Shown: one piece after another, positions 10,118-20,706 of the stretch | Position numbering within the stretch: the first letter of the stretch is position 1 | Layout: every line of letters begins with the position of its first letter | Virus record (IMG/VR): IMGVR_UViG_3300017730_000027 | Coordinates: 1-40,246 of that record | Length of the DNA stretch: 40,246 nucleotides | From: a virus | Direction: 5' to 3' (one strand) | Notes under the pieces: generated by a model | Databases searched by the model: none | Seen by the model: only the letters and a program-made list of their open reading frames with translations | Told to the model about the DNA's origin: nothing | Made by a program: the position numbers and the translations under genes

Positions 10118-11467
10118 ATGGCAGACTTTAAAACACAGCAAGATTTTAGAAAAGGTTCGTTGCTTCGTAAGATAAACGAAGATCCAACGTATCTAAGCTT
10201 CTTTTTAGTATTTGATACAGTGAACAAAGAAGAGTCACCTCTATTTGCAGGTCCTGCTAAAGAATATTTATTAAACGTATTAAATACTAGGTATTCTCAA
10301 AAACACGCTGATGCTTTAGATAACTTTAAAAAAGTTTTACTAAAGATTAATAAAGAATTGCCTTGGTTTTGGCAGAATTTAGGTGGTCTTGAGCAAGCTT
10401 TTCAATATGAAAACTTAGCAGAGCCTTGGTGGGGTGCAAAAAAACCTAAACTAGAACTTGAATGTCTAGAGGAGAATGTTGAATTAACAGCAATTGGTCT
10501 AATGGACTTATATAAAAGAGCTTGTTATGACTTTGTAAGATGGGTAGAAGTTATTCCACCAAACTTAAGACATTTTCAAATGCAAGTATGGGTTAGTGAA
10601 GTTAGAAGATTTCAACAAGATACCGGAGAAAAGGATTTAGGTTTCTTTGATAATCCTGATAATTCAGGAGAAAACGGTAATGTTAAAAAGATAAACCAAG
10701 ATTTAAGCTTAACTGCAAAACCTTTTATACAACTTAATTTTTCACATTGTGAATTTGATATTGATAGCATTGCAGATATGTTTGCAGATATTAGTAAAAA
10801 TCCAGAATTAAAAAAGCCTAAGATTGCAATTAAATGGGGATCTGTAGCACAAATTAATCAGAAGTTAGGATCTAATCTAGTTACTGAAGTAAATGATAGT
10901 CCGTTAACACAAGCGGCTCAAGGTGATTACAATCCATTTGATCCAAATGCAGAGATAAAAACTTTAACAGCTGATGGATTCGCATTACCTGGAGATCCTA
11001 CTTTTAAATCAGTACTTAAAGATAATACTTTAGGTAAGATAGGAGATGCAATTGACAATGCTGTTAGTGGTATTGAAGGTAGAGTTGACAGCGCTGTAAA
11101 TTCTTTAACATTACAAAATAATTCAGATATTGGTAATGTACATGGCGGAACAACAGGTTTAGCTTCAACATTAATTGATAGGGCTACAGACTCTGTTATG
11201 AGTAGTTTATTATTAGGTAATGTACATGGTCTTTCAGGAGGTACATTATTAGACGCAGTCCAATCCGGATCTATAAATGCTATTGCAAATCAACTAGGTG
11301 GATTATTTGGTGGTAGAGGTAACGCTGGAGGCGGTGGTGGTATAAATGAAAATATTCATCCTGCGGCAATAGACTCAACGGCAGATGGTTTCTTAAATCA
11401 AAGAATACATCCGGAAGGCGTAGACTCAACTCCTGATGGAAACTTAAACGAAAACGCACATGAATAA
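10118..11467 (+). CDS. Probable tail-tube-fold baseplate protein with C-terminal repeats
   Basis: A 449-residue virion protein lying between the hub and spike genes. Residues 112-215 resemble the tube-protein family (T4 gp19/gp54 type): a conserved-looking YKRACYDFVRWVEVIPPNL stretch, then RHFQMQVWVSEVRRF and LNFSHCEFDID. Residues 240-400 are Ala/Gly/Asn-rich and probably flexible, with two similar G-N-V-H-G segments. The C-terminus has two 17-residue repeats and a truncated third (410-426, 427-443, 444-449; core IHPxxxDSTxDGxL). The ATG is preceded by AGAGAGATAGATAATAC. The last 8 nt overlap the spike start (ATGAATAA), so hub-complex components are translationally coupled. A role at the hub-tube junction is inferred. 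Confidence 0.55.
   Translation: MADFKTQQDFRKGSLLRKINEDPTYLSFFLVFDTVNKEESPLFAGPAKEYLLNVLNTRYSQKHADALDNFKKVLLKINKELPWFWQNLGGLEQAFQYENLAEPWWGAKKPKLELECLEENVELTAIGLMDLYKRACYDFVRWVEVIPPNLRHFQMQVWVSEVRRFQQDTGEKDLGFFDNPDNSGENGNVKKINQDLSLTAKPFIQLNFSHCEFDIDSIADMFADISKNPELKKPKIAIKWGSVAQINQKLGSNLVTEVNDSPLTQAAQGDYNPFDPNAEIKTLTADGFALPGDPTFKSVLKDNTLGKIGDAIDNAVSGIEGRVDSAVNSLTLQNNSDIGNVHGGTTGLASTLIDRATDSVMSSLLLGNVHGLSGGTLLDAVQSGSINAIANQLGGLFGGRGNAGGGGGINENIHPAAIDSTADGFLNQRIHPEGVDSTPDGNLNENAHE
11345..11464 (+). repeat. 51-nt-period tandem coding repeat
   Basis: Three units at 11345-11395, 11396-11446 and 11447-11464 (partial) encode NENIHPAAIDSTADGFL, NQRIHPEGVDSTPDGNL and NENAHE. The DNA has diverged more than the protein, so this is an old duplication kept at protein level. 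The third unit overlaps the start codon of the spike gene. Confidence 0.75.
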
Positions 11468-12176
11468 TAGTGAATTATTTAGAGACAATTTACGAGATGC
11501 ACATTGGCTTGGAGAGGTCGTCGATATAGAAGATCCTCTTCTTCAAGGTAGGGCAAGGGTAAAAGTATATGGTAAGTTTGATAAATTACCAAACGAGGCT
11601 ATTCCATGGGCAACTCCACAGAATAGAGAGGCTCCTGGCATGCATGTTGTACCTAGAGTTGGAGATATTGTTGCAATAAGATTTGACAATGGAAATATCT
11701 ATCATCCGGAATACTGGTTTCAAGTAGATCAAAACGAAGATTTAAAAGCAGATATTCTAGAAGCTTCAAGCGCTCCACATGATGTTATCTCATTAGTATA
11801 TGATGCTGAAAGAAATGTAAGAATTTATCACTCTCCGGAGGATGGTCTAGTAATTACAAGGGGTGAAGGTGCAAAAGAAAGGCCTATGCTTCAAATTGAT
11901 GAAGAAGGATTTATTAAGATTTCTACAGATGCTAAAATGTTTTTAGATTGTGGGGATATATTTGTATCTAACGAAGGTGAACCTGGAGCAGATGAAACTG
12001 AACCCGCAGTAAGAGGTCAGTCTTTACAGGATTGGTTACAGGCTTTATTAGATGATTACGTAGCACATATACATCCAACTGGTGTTGGGCCATCAGGGCC
12101 TCCAATGCCACCTACTCCAACAACAGTAGGTCAACTATCCGGAACACATATTAACTATCAACAAAGAAATAAGTAA
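11460..12176 (+). CDS. Baseplate central spike protein, gp5-like OB-fold, no lysozyme domain
   Basis: Predicted cell-puncturing spike protein. Residues 15-90 match the N-terminal OB-fold of T4 gp5 and P2 gpV: WLGEVVDIEDPLLQGRARVK, then the IPWATP element, GMHVVPRVGDIVAIRF and the YHPEYWFQVD turn. Residues 105-165 are beta-rich and could form the start of the trimeric spike. The H203-x-H205-P motif followed by a Gly-Pro-Pro-rich segment is common in phage spike proteins and in P2-type spikes an H-x-H pair binds iron at the tip. At 238 residues there is no room for the lysozyme domain of T4 gp5, so peptidoglycan digestion must come from elsewhere or be unnecessary. It overlaps the preceding gene by 8 nt and precedes the next by 2 nt. 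Confidence 0.85.
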   Translation: MNNSELFRDNLRDAHWLGEVVDIEDPLLQGRARVKVYGKFDKLPNEAIPWATPQNREAPGMHVVPRVGDIVAIRFDNGNIYHPEYWFQVDQNEDLKADILEASSAPHDVISLVYDAERNVRIYHSPEDGLVITRGEGAKERPMLQIDEEGFIKISTDAKMFLDCGDIFVSNEGEPGADETEPAVRGQSLQDWLQALLDDYVAHIHPTGVGPSGPPMPPTPTTVGQLSGTHINYQQRNK

Positions 12177-14134: not shown

Positions 14135-14156
14135 CCCCAATTTTAACCCCAATCCT
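14130..14156. repeat. Tandem 12-nt direct repeat at convergent gene ends
   Basis: TTTTAACCCCAA occurs at 14130-14141 and again at 14142-14153. The first copy supplies the TAA of the plus-strand gene (14132-14134); the second supplies the TTA that is the stop of the minus-strand gene (14143-14145). No hairpin terminator is visible between the converging genes. Confidence 0.6.
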
Positions 14157-14562
14157 TTTCGTATGTATACCAATGGTCTGCGGACGCACAGTCCCTAAGA
14201 GCATCTAATACCATATAAACTTTTTCTTCCATAGTTAACATCGGTAGAATGGCTCCTACGTGCATCTCTAGTAACTCACTGTTTGGCATATACTCTGCGG
14301 TATGTCTTGCAATTCCGGTAATAAGTCTATATGTATTATCTTCTACATTTGAAAACCTAATACCAGCATGATAGCCTAGTGAGTCATTTCTACCAGTTTC
14401 TTTACTATGTTCAATCATTTTATCCCAAAGTTTATCGCCGAGTAAATCTCTAACGTCTTGGCAAATTTCTTGAATAGCATCTTTGTGTTTAAGAACAGCC
14501 TGATAGCCATGGCCACCAACACCGTTACATTCCACATCTTTATAGTTAAATTGTTTTTCCAT
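14143..14562 (-). CDS. Unknown minus-strand protein
   Basis: A 139-residue protein I do not recognise, second gene of the only minus-strand pair. It contains several His and Cys residues (GVGGHGYQAVLKHKD near the start; DALRDCASADHWYTYEKDW at the end) and mostly helical prediction, with no membrane segment. The ATG is 4 nt after the stop of the upstream minus-strand gene, so the two form an operon transcribed toward the tail genes. Orientation against every other gene here suggests expression at a different time, probably early. Function unknown. Confidence 0.65.
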   Translation of the reverse strand: MEKQFNYKDVECNGVGGHGYQAVLKHKDAIQEICQDVRDLLGDKLWDKMIEHSKETGRNDSLGYHAGIRFSNVEDNTYRLITGIARHTAEYMPNSELLEMHVGAILPMLTMEEKVYMVLDALRDCASADHWYTYEKDWG

Positions 14563-14885: not shown

Positions 14886-14934
14886 GTATCAACCACCTAA
14901 AAAGAATATTTTAGTGGATATATAATATGATACT
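14885..14934 (+). promoter_or_regulatory. Nested inverted repeat in the S1-like gene leader
   Basis: An outer perfect 7-bp pair (AGTATCA at 14885-14891 with TGATACT at 14928-14934) encloses an inner stem: CTAAAA (14897-14902) pairs with TTTTAG (14909-14914), extended by CCA (14893-14895) with TGG (14915-14917) around one bulged C. The second TATA-like motif lies inside the outer stem on the 3' side. It could be a leader RNA structure controlling the S1-like gene, an operator, or both. No T tract follows, so it is not a standard terminator. Confidence 0.45.
14917..14926 (+). promoter_or_regulatory. Candidate proximal promoter of the S1-like gene (GATATATAAT)
   Basis: Second GATATATAA motif in the same gap, 50 nt upstream of the ATG at 14967. 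It overlaps the last base of the inner stem of the inverted repeat, so structure or a bound protein there could affect initiation. Confidence 0.4.
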
Positions 14935-14966: not shown

Positions 14967-16274
14967 ATGTCAGGAAAAAGAAAGAGAATCAGTAACGATT
15001 CAACTACAACCAACCCAACTACAACAATTATAGTCGAAGAAAAGACTAAAAACCCACAAGAAGAAACTAACATTACTAAAACTCCAGAAGTTAGTGAAGA
15101 GCTTGGAAACGATCACTCAGAATTTTATGACGAATCCGGAGAATTCCTCTGGGACAAATACGAAGGCACATGCCCTACTCGTTATAGAAAACCAAACCCA
15201 CATATTAAAACAAATAACGGAGATAAGGTATTTTCAAGAGAATCTTATGCTCAAGAGTTATATGATAAGATGGAACAATATGGTACTGATGTTAAGCCTA
15301 TTGTAAACCCTGGTGAAATTCATGATGGAACTATTTATGCAATTGACCAAACTTATATAACTGTTGATATAGGTTATAGAGAATTAGTATACGTAAAGTT
15401 TGGTAAAGAATCTGATGAGGTTAAAGCATCTTCAGTAGGCGATAAGACTGCAGTTTTAATTACCGAAACTAAAGGTACTTTAACTGGAACTATTACAGGT
15501 GGTGTAAGACATAAAACATTTACAGATCTTAGAGACTCAATTGATGAAGGTAGAACTGCTTGGATTGGCCATGTAAAGAATATGATTGATAAGGGTGGAT
15601 ATGTTGTTACAGTACAAGGTATCAACTGTTTTATGCCAGGTTCTTTAGCAGGTATTAATAAATTATCTGACTTTAGTTCTATTGTTGATGAAGAGATTTA
15701 TGTGGTACCAGTTAGTTTCTCTGCGGATAGAGGCACAATTGTAGTTTCACATAGAAAATATTTACAAGCACTTATTCCAACTGCAATAGAAAATTTAAAA
15801 CAATCTATTGACACAGAAAAAGAAGGTACTGTAACAGGTACTGCTAAATACGGTGTATTTGTAGAATTTGATCAATGCCTAACTGGTATGATTCATAATA
15901 ATGATCTAGATGAAGATACATTAACTAGGTTTAAAACTAGAGAGATTAAGCCTGGAGATCCTATTAAATTTAAAGTAAAAGATATAATCAGCAATAATAA
16001 GATTACTCTAACACAAAAAGATGTGGTTGATGTTAACCCTTGGATAAACATTAGTAATAGATACCAAATACCATCTGTAGTAGAAGCTGTTATTAAGTCT
16101 AAAAAAGACTATGGTTTATTCATTAATATAGAAGATGGTGTAACTGGATTGCTACATGTTAGCGAGATAGGTGAGGAAACCATGTCTGTATTTAATCCTG
16201 GTGATAAAATTACTGTTCAAATTACTAGAATTGATGAGGGGACTATGAAGGTATTTTTGAAGATGCCCCAATAA
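14967..16274 (+). CDS. Phage-encoded ribosomal protein S1-like protein (four S1/OB domains)
   Basis: A 435-residue protein with about four tandem S1 RNA-binding OB-folds: roughly 115-170 (GEIHDGTIYAIDQTYITVDI), 195-262, 285-352 (EGTVTGTAKYGVFVEFDQCL then GMIHNNDL, ITLTQKD) and 368-433 (AVIKSKKDYGLFINIEDGVT then GLLHVSEI). Domains 3 and 4 show the canonical G-x-[FV] and [LM]-[IL]-H pattern of mRNA-binding S1 repeats; 1 and 2 are more diverged. Residues 1-50 are Thr/Glu/Lys-rich and disordered, followed by FLWDKYEG (60-67), resembling the W-D-x-[FY]-E motif I recall near the start of Bacteroidota S1. Host S1 has about six domains, so this is a shortened form. It probably binds A/U-rich leaders or ribosomes and may favour phage mRNAs. 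Two TATA-like motifs and an inverted repeat precede it. Confidence 0.85.
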   Translation: MSGKRKRISNDSTTTNPTTTIIVEEKTKNPQEETNITKTPEVSEELGNDHSEFYDESGEFLWDKYEGTCPTRYRKPNPHIKTNNGDKVFSRESYAQELYDKMEQYGTDVKPIVNPGEIHDGTIYAIDQTYITVDIGYRELVYVKFGKESDEVKASSVGDKTAVLITETKGTLTGTITGGVRHKTFTDLRDSIDEGRTAWIGHVKNMIDKGGYVVTVQGINCFMPGSLAGINKLSDFSSIVDEEIYVVPVSFSADRGTIVVSHRKYLQALIPTAIENLKQSIDTEKEGTVTGTAKYGVFVEFDQCLTGMIHNNDLDEDTLTRFKTREIKPGDPIKFKVKDIISNNKITLTQKDVVDVNPWINISNRYQIPSVVEAVIKSKKDYGLFINIEDGVTGLLHVSEIGEETMSVFNPGDKITVQITRIDEGTMKVFLKMPQ

Positions 16275-16324: not shown

Positions 16325-17638
16325 ATGCAAAAACTAAATAGAGACTCTAGTAGGATTTCGATACTGAACGGAAGTCAAATGGGTATCGAGTTTGAATTCT
16401 ATTCTAACTTAGAGATCGAAGAGACACAGAAAGCTTTATCTAAGCTACTTAATCGTAAGATTAAAGTAGAAGATAAAGCCCATTCTGACTTTCAACCTAG
16501 TAAAGATGTTTTTAAGATGGAACCAGATATGTCTGGTGGTAAAGGACTAATTGAATTAGTTACTGGACCTATGCCGTATCGAGATGCTAGATTAGTTATT
16601 ATTAAAATGTTAGGATGGATTAGAGCAAATGGTTATACAACTGATCGTGCTTCTATACACCTTAACATGTCTTTCAATCCTGATTATTTAGAAGATCCTA
16701 TGATGGTTTCTAAAATGAATATTTTAAAGTTTATTTTAGAATTTGATGAAAAGAGAGTTTACAAGTATTTTCCTAAAAGAGAGAATTCAACTTATGCAAA
16801 ATCTATTAAATGGGTTATGCCTAAACATGAAGCTTTCTACTACAATGAGAATCTAATCAGTTCAGATAACTTTACATTTGCTAATACTAAATATTATGGT
16901 ATTAACTTTGAAAAAGCTCAAAGTAACTATTTAGAGTTTAGGTATATTGGTGGTAAAGATTATGAAAAAAGAGCTGATGATGTTTTACATTTAGCGGAAA
17001 TGTTTATTATGTCTGTATGGAAATCTTGCTTTAATCCTAAGTTTACTGCCGAGAATAAAATAGAGATGAAAAGGATTTTACAGAAGAATGCACCTCTTTC
17101 AGAAATGCTAAAAGATTATTCTGCCGTAAATAAATATTGGCCTAAGATACATATACTAGTAGATTTGCAAGATAATCCACAGGTAATTGAAGTTCAATGG
17201 AACAGATTTAAGAAAAAAGTTCTAGAGCTTTTATCAAATGGAAGCATGGAAGAAGGTACAGTTAATTATGATTCTGACTATGGGGCAGTCCAAGTTAAGG
17301 ATGGTAAGTTTAAAACTGCATATTTATTAGACGGCTTTGAATTTGTAAACTGTGAATTATCAGGTAATATTGAAAACAGTGAAATGTACGAATGTAAAAT
17401 TAAAGGTGCTCAAGTATTAAAATCAAGTTTATACCAAGGCACAGAGGTTTGGGATTCTAAAGTAGAGTCTAGTTTTGTACATGGAAGTTGTACTTTAAAT
17501 AACTGTTTTGTTTTTGGCAGGGATGGTATTTTTAAAGGTAAAATGAATGCAGGTATTTTTAGAGAAGGTGGGGTTGGACCTCATGCTAGATTCTCTGATG
17601 AGACTGAAGTCATTGTAAGTAAAAAAATTAAAGCATAA
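16325..17638 (+). CDS. Amidoligase-like protein with a repetitive beta-helix-like C-terminus
   Basis: The N-terminal about 300 residues fit the glutamine-synthetase-like COOH-NH2 ligase (amidoligase) superfamily, ATP-dependent enzymes that form amide bonds on small molecules or peptides. Visible matches to the family layout are G20-I-E22-F-E24-F, K64-x-E66-x-D68-x-S70 followed by E77-L-V-T-G-P, S110-I-H112-L-N114, and Y202-L-E204-F-R206-Y. These acidic and His/Asn residues are those expected to bind metal-ATP. Residues 330-437 are a run of short repeats (FEFVNCELSGNIENSEMYEC, then further N/S-C/S-x-V/F units) like a pentapeptide or right-handed beta-helix, unusual for the family. The substrate is unknown. 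The gene follows the S1-like gene by 50 nt and precedes a structural gene by 2 nt, so modification of a virion or host surface component is conceivable. Confidence 0.65.
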   Translation: MQKLNRDSSRISILNGSQMGIEFEFYSNLEIEETQKALSKLLNRKIKVEDKAHSDFQPSKDVFKMEPDMSGGKGLIELVTGPMPYRDARLVIIKMLGWIRANGYTTDRASIHLNMSFNPDYLEDPMMVSKMNILKFILEFDEKRVYKYFPKRENSTYAKSIKWVMPKHEAFYYNENLISSDNFTFANTKYYGINFEKAQSNYLEFRYIGGKDYEKRADDVLHLAEMFIMSVWKSCFNPKFTAENKIEMKRILQKNAPLSEMLKDYSAVNKYWPKIHILVDLQDNPQVIEVQWNRFKKKVLELLSNGSMEEGTVNYDSDYGAVQVKDGKFKTAYLLDGFEFVNCELSGNIENSEMYECKIKGAQVLKSSLYQGTEVWDSKVESSFVHGSCTLNNCFVFGRDGIFKGKMNAGIFREGGVGPHARFSDETEVIVSKKIKA

Positions 17639-17640
17639 AA

Positions 17641-18483
17641 ATGAGCGAAATTAGAAGCGGCAATCGCAACGATTTAAGTACACCAAGAGACTTTGGTGCT
17701 AACTGCTTAAACGAATTTTTAACAGAACTTGGAGATGATTTAACAGGAGCATGTATGGTGCCGGTTAATCTACCTCAAAGAGAGATTGTTAATATTATTA
17801 AAAGAGCTAAGAAGTGGTTCTATAAACAATATGAAGACTCGGTAAAAGAAAACTACTACCATGTTCCTAAGGAAGTATTTGAATCTACTTATTTTAAAAA
17901 TAATAGATGTTTAAACTTACCTGGAGCAAGTGCTGACGGAGGAGGTAATGTATACTCTGTATTTGGAGTATTTGATTTAGCCTCTGGCTTTAACGGAACT
18001 GGTCAAGGTATGGATGTAAGATTCTCAGGTGGCGGAGATTTCGCTTTAGAAAAAATGCTATTTAGAGGAATGTACGACGGTTCAGGTCCTGCGGAAGCAG
18101 CAGAAGAATTACAATATTATGTACTAAATGCTTCTATGGCTGATCTGTCTAGGCAGATCTTAGAAAATCCTATATCTTTTAACTATACCAGACTAAATGG
18201 TGAGTTAAAGATTCTAGGTGATACTCCAAAGGGAGATATAATACTACATGTTTATGAAACTATATCTGATTGCGCACTTTATAGCGATGAGATTTTCTTT
18301 AGATATGTAAGTGCTAAAGTAAAGCAATCATTGGGTGCTAAATTAGGTATCTTTAAATTTGCTTTACCAGGTAATGTAGAATTTGATTACGATGCTATTA
18401 AAGACATGGGCGACACCGAAATAGAGTCAATAATAGAGGAAATTAAGGGCGACGAAGGCGTGGACTGGATGTTCCACTCATAA
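17641..18483 (+). CDS. Probable virion structural protein upstream of gp25
   Basis: A 280-residue protein without a recognised name. It starts 2 nt after the amidoligase stop and ends 20 nt before the gp25-like gene. The N-terminal helix (REIVNIIKRAKKWFYKQYED), a Gly-rich middle (95-145) and a conserved-looking C-terminal half (YVLNASMADLSRQILENP, then SFNYTRLNGELKILGDTPKG and DEIFFRYVSAKVKQ) suggest a folded virion component. The end is acidic. Its place immediately before gp25 and gp6 suggests a tail, neck or baseplate part; nothing in the sequence shows which. Confidence 0.6.
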   Translation: MSEIRSGNRNDLSTPRDFGANCLNEFLTELGDDLTGACMVPVNLPQREIVNIIKRAKKWFYKQYEDSVKENYYHVPKEVFESTYFKNNRCLNLPGASADGGGNVYSVFGVFDLASGFNGTGQGMDVRFSGGGDFALEKMLFRGMYDGSGPAEAAEELQYYVLNASMADLSRQILENPISFNYTRLNGELKILGDTPKGDIILHVYETISDCALYSDEIFFRYVSAKVKQSLGAKLGIFKFALPGNVEFDYDAIKDMGDTEIESIIEEIKGDEGVDWMFHS

Positions 18484-18503: not shown

Positions 18504-18860
18504 ATGGAATTTTATATTAAATACATTGGTGACCCAAACTATAACGCGACACAGTTACAGAATAACGGTGAGATTGAGCAATTAATTACTCAAATCGAAA
18601 CTATTTTGTTTACTAGAAAAACAGAGGTTTTAGGATCTGCTGGATTTGGTTGTAATCTAGAAGATATGGTTTATTCATTGAATCAAAATGAGTATAATAT
18701 TAAACAAATGATTACAAATCAGATTAATCGATATTGTCCATTAGCTTCTAAATACAATGTAGCTACTGATGTAAAATTCTTTAAAGGTGAAGTAAGAGAT
18801 ATTGCCTATATTGACATTACAATTGATAGTAAATATTTAGTGCAAATAAACCTAAGATAA
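18504..18860 (+). CDS. Baseplate wedge protein, gp25/gpW-like
   Basis: A 118-residue protein matching the gp25/GpW family, the conserved wedge component that nucleates sheath assembly in contractile tails. The family pattern is seen as INxxL-type residues (IEQLITQIETILFTRKTEVL), then GSAGFGCNLEDMVY in place of the usual G-E-R-x-x-x-P-x-F-G, followed by the helix IKQMITNQINRYCP and the terminal strands AYIDITIDSKYLVQINL. Length is normal for the family (T4 gp25 is 132). Location directly upstream of gp6 is the T4-type and P2-type order. The usual Gly-Glu-Arg of this family is altered to Lys-Thr-Glu. Confidence 0.82.
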   Translation: MEFYIKYIGDPNYNATQLQNNGEIEQLITQIETILFTRKTEVLGSAGFGCNLEDMVYSLNQNEYNIKQMITNQINRYCPLASKYNVATDVKFFKGEVRDIAYIDITIDSKYLVQINLR

Positions 18861-18876
18861 AAGAGATAAATAATAA

Positions 18877-20706
18877 ATGGCAGAATTAAAATTTTTAGAG
18901 ACGGTTAGAAATAACGCGGAGCAGATCAAAACTGACACAAGAACCTACATAAGTAGAGTTTACAAAAGAGCCAATACTCTTTTTACTGAGGCATCCCCAT
19001 TTGCTCAGATTATTTCTGTGTTCTCAGAATTATATGAACTTATTATGTTCTATATTGAGGATGCTATTGTTGAGCAAAACATATATACCGCTCAACAGGC
19101 AGAGTCTATATACGGTATGTCAAGATTGACAGGACATGATGCAACAAGAGGTTTTGCTGCAACCGGTGAAATTGAATTTAGATGGAAACCTGGAGCTGAT
19201 TTAGGTAAGATTGCAGGTACAGGATTAAATATAGATCCTAGATCTGAATTAAAGTGTGAATTAAACGGTATGTTCTATACCGTGTTATCTTCAAAGGATA
19301 GATTCAGGTTAGAGAAATCTAATATGTCTAAAATTAAATCAGCTATTATACAAGGTAAATACGAAAGACAAACTTTAACAGGCAGTGGAGAAAAGCTACA
19401 GTCTTTTAATATACAGACAAAAAAGCTATCAGACCACTCTAAGGTTAGTGTTTCTATCAATGGCGAGAAGTGGACCAAACATGATTCGCTTTATGATTTA
19501 TTAAATAATGAAAAAGGTTATCTATTAAAAACCGGGATTTCTGGTGGTATTGATGTTTATTTTGGTAATGGTGCATTTGGTGCGATTCCACCTCTAGGTT
19601 CTACTATTGAAGTGGAATATGTAAAACATGATGGTTTTATGGGTAATATAGATGATGGTAGAGATATTACTTTTAAATGGCAAGCAGAAGGAACTGATTC
19701 ATTAGGAGGAGAACATGACCTAAACGAGTTTTTAGATATTACATGTACTTCATCTCCAAAAATGGGAGCAGATAGAGAGTCAACAGATTTTACGAAAATA
19801 ATGACTCCTCTTGCTTCAAAATCATTTGTTTTAGCAACCCCAGATAATTATGAGTACTTCTTATCAAGATATGGATTATTCTCGTATGTGGATGCCTACA
19901 ACACTACTTCGGATGAGTATCTAGATGATGATAATGTTATTTATATTTTCGCTGTTCCGGATGTAAGAAAGAAATTAGCTTCAGGTCAAGATTACTTCTC
20001 TATTCCAGAGAATGAAATGTTCTTCGACCAGAATGAATATGATAAAATGTCACAAGTAATTCAGGATAGTGGCCAACAGATGGTTACAACTGAAGTTGTG
20101 TTTGTAAAACCCCAAGTAAGAAAATATAGTATGGATATTAATATTAGATATTTTGAGGGCTATGCAAAAGAAGAGATTTTTAATGATGTCAGAACAAAGG
20201 TAAGTGATTACATGTTAAATGTAACGAGAAGAGATAAACTGCCTAAGTCTGATATTGTCTATATTCTAGAAGAAATAGAAGGTATTGATGCTGTTAACGT
20301 TAGGTTTATTTCAGAGACTGAAGAAACAGCTAGAAGACTTGGTTACTTTGAGTCGGTTACAACAACTGTCCAGCCACAAGAGCCAGTAGTCTTAGAAGAT
20401 ATAGGTAACGGTAAACAAAAATACATCTTTTTCAAAAAAGTAGAGGAAGTTAAAACAGTTGATGTTGACGAATCTACAGTAATACCGTACACTGTTGCTG
20501 GCTTAGACCAGTGGGGTGATATAATTATGGAGAAAGAGGAAGTTGCAGTCTTTAGAGGCGGGTGGCAAGATCGTGATGGTGACGAGATTGTTGACAAAGC
20601 TCTAATTAATGCAGAAGCAGCACTGTCTGTTAACTTCGACCCAACGCCAGTACCTAGGACGATATACACTAGAGTACAGGCTGGAAACAGAAAAGCCTTG
20701 AAATAA
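18877..20706 (+). CDS. Baseplate wedge protein, gp6/baseplate-J-like
   Basis: A 609-residue wedge protein of the gp6/BaseplateJ family, which forms the inner ring of the baseplate. The diagnostic segment at 221-258 (IDVYFGNGAFGAIPPLGSTI followed by VEYVKHDGFMGNI) is the family's Gly-rich beta turn. The N-terminal helical part (residues 1-80, VRNNAEQIKTDTRTYISRVY onward) and the C-terminal half with a KSDIVYILEEIEGIDAVNVR element also fit. The ATG is preceded by AGAGATAAATAATAA, much like the leader of the gene at 10118. The stop overlaps the next start by one base (TAATG). Confidence 0.82.
   Translation: MAELKFLETVRNNAEQIKTDTRTYISRVYKRANTLFTEASPFAQIISVFSELYELIMFYIEDAIVEQNIYTAQQAESIYGMSRLTGHDATRGFAATGEIEFRWKPGADLGKIAGTGLNIDPRSELKCELNGMFYTVLSSKDRFRLEKSNMSKIKSAIIQGKYERQTLTGSGEKLQSFNIQTKKLSDHSKVSVSINGEKWTKHDSLYDLLNNEKGYLLKTGISGGIDVYFGNGAFGAIPPLGSTIEVEYVKHDGFMGNIDDGRDITFKWQAEGTDSLGGEHDLNEFLDITCTSSPKMGADRESTDFTKIMTPLASKSFVLATPDNYEYFLSRYGLFSYVDAYNTTSDEYLDDDNVIYIFAVPDVRKKLASGQDYFSIPENEMFFDQNEYDKMSQVIQDSGQQMVTTEVVFVKPQVRKYSMDINIRYFEGYAKEEIFNDVRTKVSDYMLNVTRRDKLPKSDIVYILEEIEGIDAVNVRFISETEETARRLGYFESVTTTVQPQEPVVLEDIGNGKQKYIFFKKVEEVKTVDVDESTVIPYTVAGLDQWGDIIMEKEEVAVFRGGWQDRDGDEIVDKALINAEAALSVNFDPTPVPRTIYTRVQAGNRKALK

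Follow-up and report, generated by a model that had tools for sequence, protein, structure and literature searches.

Proteins resembling ribosomal protein S1 (rpS1, bS1) have been described from several large phages. In their 2020 report on huge phages, Al-Shayeb et al. described rpS1-like proteins and proposed a role for them in initiation and in hijacking of host translation, but they could not be confirmed as "true" rpS1 (PMC7162821). Homologous S1 proteins are encoded by the Mahaphages LR756500-LR756504 and LR745206 (462-735 kb) and by the Lak megaphages of Prevotella (about 540 kb), whose S1 falls in the same tree clan as the protein discussed here. A jumbo cyanophage, PhiMa05 (MaAM05), likewise carries a bS1 (2026, PMC13157829), however, this protein groups with host S1s outside the phage clan and is encoded in an ispH-rpsA-rplU-rpmA cluster. 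Another protein of the same 30S site, bS21, is known from phages of the same host phylum, the Bacteroidota, and has been proposed to act in late mRNA selection (PMC9723584). It is a separate protein, which in the present family is encoded beside bS1 in the same contigs. Relative to the 2020 report, the analysis below adds the identity of the first two domains and what appears from the sequences to be a Bacteroidota docking motif in the window's family and in Lak. The support for bS1 identity, the Bacteroidota-type docking motif and the pairing of bS1 with bS21 are possibly new; in the literature searched, which was covered in part, the docking motif, the fixed locus, the promoter-like element and the pairing were not found for the window's family.

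The window is the whole 40,246-nucleotide stretch of viral DNA that was analysed. The S1 gene occupies exactly positions 14967-16274 on the plus strand, from ATG to stop (435 codons), and a long competing frame is absent. Its 435-residue product, with four S1/OB domains, is a ribosomal-protein-S1 (bS1) homologue and not a stray S1-domain protein. The Pfam S1 model PF00575 matches it with an E-value of 5.7e-23 and detects two stretches unaided; the remaining two segments are visible through rpS1 profiles, per-domain HMMs and the beta-barrel units of an AlphaFold2 model. The top-ranked NCBIfam models are those of ribosomal protein S1, and NF004952 scores 155 bits (E 2.3e-45), below its curated equivalog cut-off of 524 bits, in a collinear alignment of residues 90-434 with profile positions 24-374 of 580. 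The profiles of PNPase, GSP13 and RNase R score 56, 55 and 34 bits, and their matches are limited to single S1 repeats. With phmmer, residues 113-433 aligned with residues 18-346 of E. coli bS1, which are D1-D4. PHROGs contains no model for this protein.

The four domains were assigned with HMMs made from each host S1 domain and run on 20 family representatives. In all 20 the best match of repeat 1 was D1 and that of repeat 2 was D2; for P0001 the scores were 16.8 bits against 2.3 for the next model (D1) and 31.0 against 5.5 (D2). OB domain 1 lies at about residues 113-180 (15303..15506, plus strand) and OB domain 2, which the family conserves best, at about residues 196-266 (15552..15764, plus strand). 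OB domain 3 (about residues 282-352; 15810..16022, plus strand), which matches best to host D5/D4, and OB domain 4 (about residues 365-435; 16059..16271, plus strand) resemble the D5/D4-type RNA-binding repeats, in a register that is not clear. Conservation in the family is lowest for domain 1, 62% versus 77-82% for the others and 77-79% for repeats 3 and 4. The AlphaFold2 model, which was built from 21 family sequences, has a mean pLDDT of 72.6 and a pTM of 0.41, so that the relative placement of domains is undefined; it contains a disordered tail (residues 1-48), a short helix (62-68), a second helix (95-105) and four OB units. Its top PDB fold matches are bS1 chains on 30S and 70S ribosomes (9gut, 9guv and 6h4n), and its top viral matches are phage proteins annotated as S1 motif or 30S ribosomal protein S1.

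In E. coli bS1, D1 and D2 bear the uS2 anchor and the exit-site contacts, and Lys43 inserts into a pocket of uS2 (PMC10123108). Arg138 of the phage protein (codon 15378..15380, plus strand) occupies the column of Lys43, the contact to the uS2 Zn pocket, and is invariant in the family alignment. The segment G-E-F-L-W-D-K-Y-E (residues 58-66; 15138..15164, plus strand) precedes domain 1, and F60-L-W62-D-K-Y65-E66 is the N-terminal signature of Bacteroidota bS1. Among 21 family sequences F60 and W62 are invariant and Y65 and E66 are at least 90% conserved. The pattern F-x-W-x-x-[YF]-[EQD] occurs in 0.03% of shuffles of the first 110 residues versus 20 of 20 family representatives, and F-x-W-x-x-Y/F-E/Q is present in all 20 representatives, in the Lak proteins and in five of five Bacteroidota S1s versus none of six other S1s. 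The Bacteroidota versions include F-N-W-D-A-Y-E (Bacteroides finegoldii), F-N-W-D-A-F-E (Parabacteroides distasonis), F-N-W-E-E-F-E (Prevotella nigrescens) and F-N-W-H-N-F-Q (the bS1 of PDB 9zcd). A scan of genome contigs yielded no Bacteroidota genome, so the host S1 set was drawn from plasmid records, to which a PDB alignment added one incomplete sequence; a Bacteroidota S1 served as a probe only. By analogy with F5/F9 of E. coli bS1 (PMC10123108), with which it is equated by position and role and not by alignment, the segment would dock on uS2; a solved structure with the Bacteroidota N-terminal segment on uS2 was not found. The phage protein differs from Bacteroidota bS1 (rpsA) in that overall identity is low, there are four repeats rather than the six of Bacteroidota and E. 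coli, and about 50 residues of disordered, basic N-terminal extension and about 18 residues before D1 have been added; the motif, D1-D2 and the RNA-binding repeats are shared. The extension carries a K-R-x-R-I motif (residues 4-8; 14976..14990, plus strand) in which R5 and R7 are invariant in the family. Membership in bS1 is supported, as judged from sequence, because the D1-D2 architecture is accompanied by docking-type residues, and ribosome binding is a prediction from it. The preliminary description had read four S1/OB segments, a W-D-x-Y-E motif near residue 62 (W62-D-K-Y-E66) and a shortened rpS1 homologue rather than a PNPase or RNase fragment, and had proposed a HMMER-type profile check; the profile scores, the D1/D2 matches, the repeat number and the fold search all agree with it.

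A scan of viral contigs recovered 87 S1 relatives, 80 of which were kept; they are 46-84% identical and of similar length where complete. The same scan queried with a Bacteroidota S1 gave zero matches. Purifying selection acts on the gene: among 15 informative pairs, 14 have a dN/dS of 0.04-0.18, and the outlier (0.70) has a dS below 0.01. The locus is fixed in all 59 related marine contigs that reach far enough upstream, counted with gp6 as an independent anchor: S1 lies between a large 651-aa tail gene and an amidoligase-like gene with a weak PF12224 match (16325..17638, plus strand), which is immediately 3' of S1 in 59 of 59 and belongs to the tail/neck cluster. The position inside a tail gene cluster noted earlier is thereby correct, and the flanking genes are structural, a gp5-like hub (11460-12176), an Ad2 head-tail adaptor (17641-18483), a gp25-like gene (18504-18860) and the gp6 wedge (18877-20706). 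In the 462-kb Mahaphage LR756500, 15 window genes surround S1 in preserved order. S1 of LR756502 and LR745206 adjoins two large genes that are found downstream in the window, and in LR756501, LR756504 and the Lak phages (541-544 kb) it lies in different neighbourhoods.

A promoter-like element, GATATATAATATG(T/A)TAC, is located at 14917..14933 on the plus strand, 33 nt 5' of the S1 ATG, where it would serve as promoter or leader. In a comparison of 20 upstream stretches (19 relatives and the window) its core heptamers occur in 17-19, about 20-40 nt 5' of the ATG, and the flanks vary; read as GATATATAATATGTTAC, the strongly conserved element directly before S1 (window 14917-14933) has a TATAAT core and may be S1's own promoter. 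The copy at 14917 is the only one in the window within three mismatches. A divergent pair of minus-strand genes precedes the window's S1, and a variable minus-strand gene upstream (139 aa; 14143..14562), of unassigned function, is found in 26 of 59 loci. Late expression, which had been deduced from the position in a structural cluster, does not follow from that position because this element and the divergent pair precede S1. An Rfam search of the window gave no match. Sites of the form GATATATAATA, related to the S1 element, were seen upstream of a few other genes in the contigs G002 and G003. In the same two, 10 of 138 (G002) and 8 of 213 (G003) proteins start with MKxIKxFExFxNE, like T4 capsid-targeting signals, versus 3 and 1 with the pattern at an internal control position; these are possibly many injected internal head proteins.

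The host phylum of this large virus of marine bacteria is taken to be Bacteroidota because the named hosts of cultured phages with related baseplate and tail proteins, Tenacibaculum, Chryseobacterium and Flavobacterium, point to it; one such phage is listed for Sphingomonas. These cultured phages have genomes of 168-235 kb, and neither S1 nor bS21 was found in the five tested. In a tree of phage and host S1s, from which non-rpS1 proteins were left out, all phage S1s form one clan, and a branch with 100/100 support separates it from all host S1s. Since all phage copies form one clan, the acquisition of S1 is, on the tree, ancient, and recent capture from a host is ruled out. The clan sits on a long branch, and neither attachment to Bacteroidota (AU p 0.18) nor attachment to Proteobacteria (0.20) was rejected. 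The suggestion that the gene is host-derived therefore holds as an ancient origin, but these values do not settle the donor phylum. The Bacteroidota-type motif is the sole hint of the source and could be convergent. Mahaphage/Lak-type S1 was also seen on an Erysipelotrichaceae MAG contig and a Clostridium MAG contig, which are probably misbinned phage DNA. Contigs of Acinetobacter phage MD-2021a (CAKLQH020000011 and CAKLQF020000009) have the host gene order of the cmk-rpsA-ihfB type and were rejected as host contamination. MT835643, which is filed as phage, has a Bacteroidota-type rpsA and was treated in the same way.

The family also encodes bS21. It was found 24.6-29.7 kb upstream of S1, in the same direction, in all seven searched contigs with 27 kb or more of sequence on that side; one of the seven matches is under the curated cut-off, yet has an E-value of 2e-6. 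Family contigs without bS21 have a shorter upstream reach, one of them borderline at 26 kb. In the 40-kb window bS21 was not found, its expected position being beyond the left end, and the window's own phage would be expected to carry it. LR756501, LR756502, LR756504 and LR745206 also encode bS1 and bS21 together; in LR756500 and Lak, S1 was found and bS21 was not. The comparison was seeded with two bS21 sequences. It has been shown that Tyr54 of bS21 blocks the anti-SD (PMC9723584), and this position is retained in all these phage bS21s. IF3 is encoded by the Mahaphages LR756500, LR756501 and LR756504 and was not found in the family contigs searched.

A correlation between phage S1 and missing Shine-Dalgarno (SD) sequences has been published (PMC7162821). 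In phages with S1, 3-8% of genes have a core SD motif in front of them, which does not exceed the value for shuffled leaders, so the earlier statement that the phage leaders mostly lack SD sequences stands. Its use as specific support for an S1 role does not, because the S1-less Tenacibaculum phage PTm1 (4%) and Chryseobacterium phage MA9V-1 (2%) are equally SD-poor; in T4, the positive control, SD motifs were found before 59% of genes versus 16% in shuffled leaders. A-rich leaders are general in these phages. Since SD-poverty is a trait of the host phylum (PMC3155529), the published correlation is confounded by phylum.

The phage bS1 paralogue probably acts on the 30S subunit of its Bacteroidota host, replacing host bS1 or standing beside it. 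The segment F-x-W-D-x-Y-E and domain 1, through Arg138, would dock on uS2, domain 2 would sit where the mRNA exits, and domains 3-4 would direct initiation towards phage mRNAs by capturing leaders that are A/U-rich and lack SD sequences. This use of A/U-rich leaders would parallel current thinking on host bS1 in Bacteroidota, and in Flavobacterium johnsoniae extra bS1 increases initiation on SD-less mRNA (PMC9976891). Phage bS21 probably partners bS1, and the two small accessory proteins at the mRNA exit site would then both be viral. Ribosome binding, displacement of host bS1 and mRNA preference are what the collinear rpS1 match, D1/D2, the ribosome-bound bS1 folds, the motif, the fixed locus, dN/dS and bS21 would lead one to expect. 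Against them stand the low conservation of domain 1, an SD-poverty that is not specific to S1 carriers, and the relatives. In the window's family S1 is a fixed core gene with the W-motif, whereas the motif was not found in the 462-735 kb Mahaphage copies. Lak S1 has F-N-W-T-P-Y-E and keeps the linker IKTKN...SHESYAQELYD, but D2 and one later repeat are all that is recognised; it has no clear domain 4 and no Lys43-type residue. Because of these Mahaphage and Lak copies, docking on the ribosome may not be what phage S1s ancestrally have in common.

The altered docking elements of Lak and the largest Mahaphages would also suit a protein that works off the ribosome, coating or chaperoning phage RNA in RNase protection, antitermination or as cofactor of a phage nuclease, with D1-D2 as a relic. 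Host S1 is a cofactor of T4 RegB. D2-D4 are conserved better than D1 and the N-terminus, the invariant basic KRxRI N-terminus is phage-specific, and Al-Shayeb et al. did not decide between action on the ribosome and action away from it (PMC7162821). However, F60, W62, Y65, E66 and R138 are kept near-invariantly in the window's family, and bS1 is paired with bS21, and we regard this possibility as doubtful. It is improbable that phage S1 is a decoy which displaces host bS1 and blocks host initiation rather than favouring phage mRNA: the small number of repeats, four, and the retained docking elements speak for it, but a pure blocker has no need of the well-conserved repeats 3-4, and the same block would strike the SD-less phage mRNAs. 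The least credible reading is that of an OB-fold tail protein or of an S1-domain protein unconnected with the ribosome (PNPase, RNase R or a GSP13-like fragment), despite the location among tail genes and the S1-domain matches that Mizuno et al. left out as ambiguous (PMC6375957), and is already largely refuted, since the profile scores, the domain order with its D1/D2-specific matches, and the ribosome-bound bS1 chains at the head of the fold search rule out a generic S1-domain or PNPase identity.

How Bacteroidota choose start sites without Shine-Dalgarno pairing is an open question in which bS1 is the suspected reader. A phage family with its own bS1, bearing host-like docking residues, and its own bS21 provides natural variants of the proteins in question. 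The results bear on the doubt, raised in 2020, about counting the S1-domain proteins of phages as true ribosomal proteins. They also indicate that the host phylum accounts for the association that had been reported between S1 and a lack of SD sequences. Tentatively, with both exit-site accessory proteins viral, there could be a virus-specific class of Bacteroidota ribosomes in which the viral bS1 reads A/U-rich leaders and SD-less phage mRNAs are picked in this way. A bS1 at a fixed spot, together with bS21 in relatives, suggests that the phage adapts host ribosomes to the translation of its own mRNAs.
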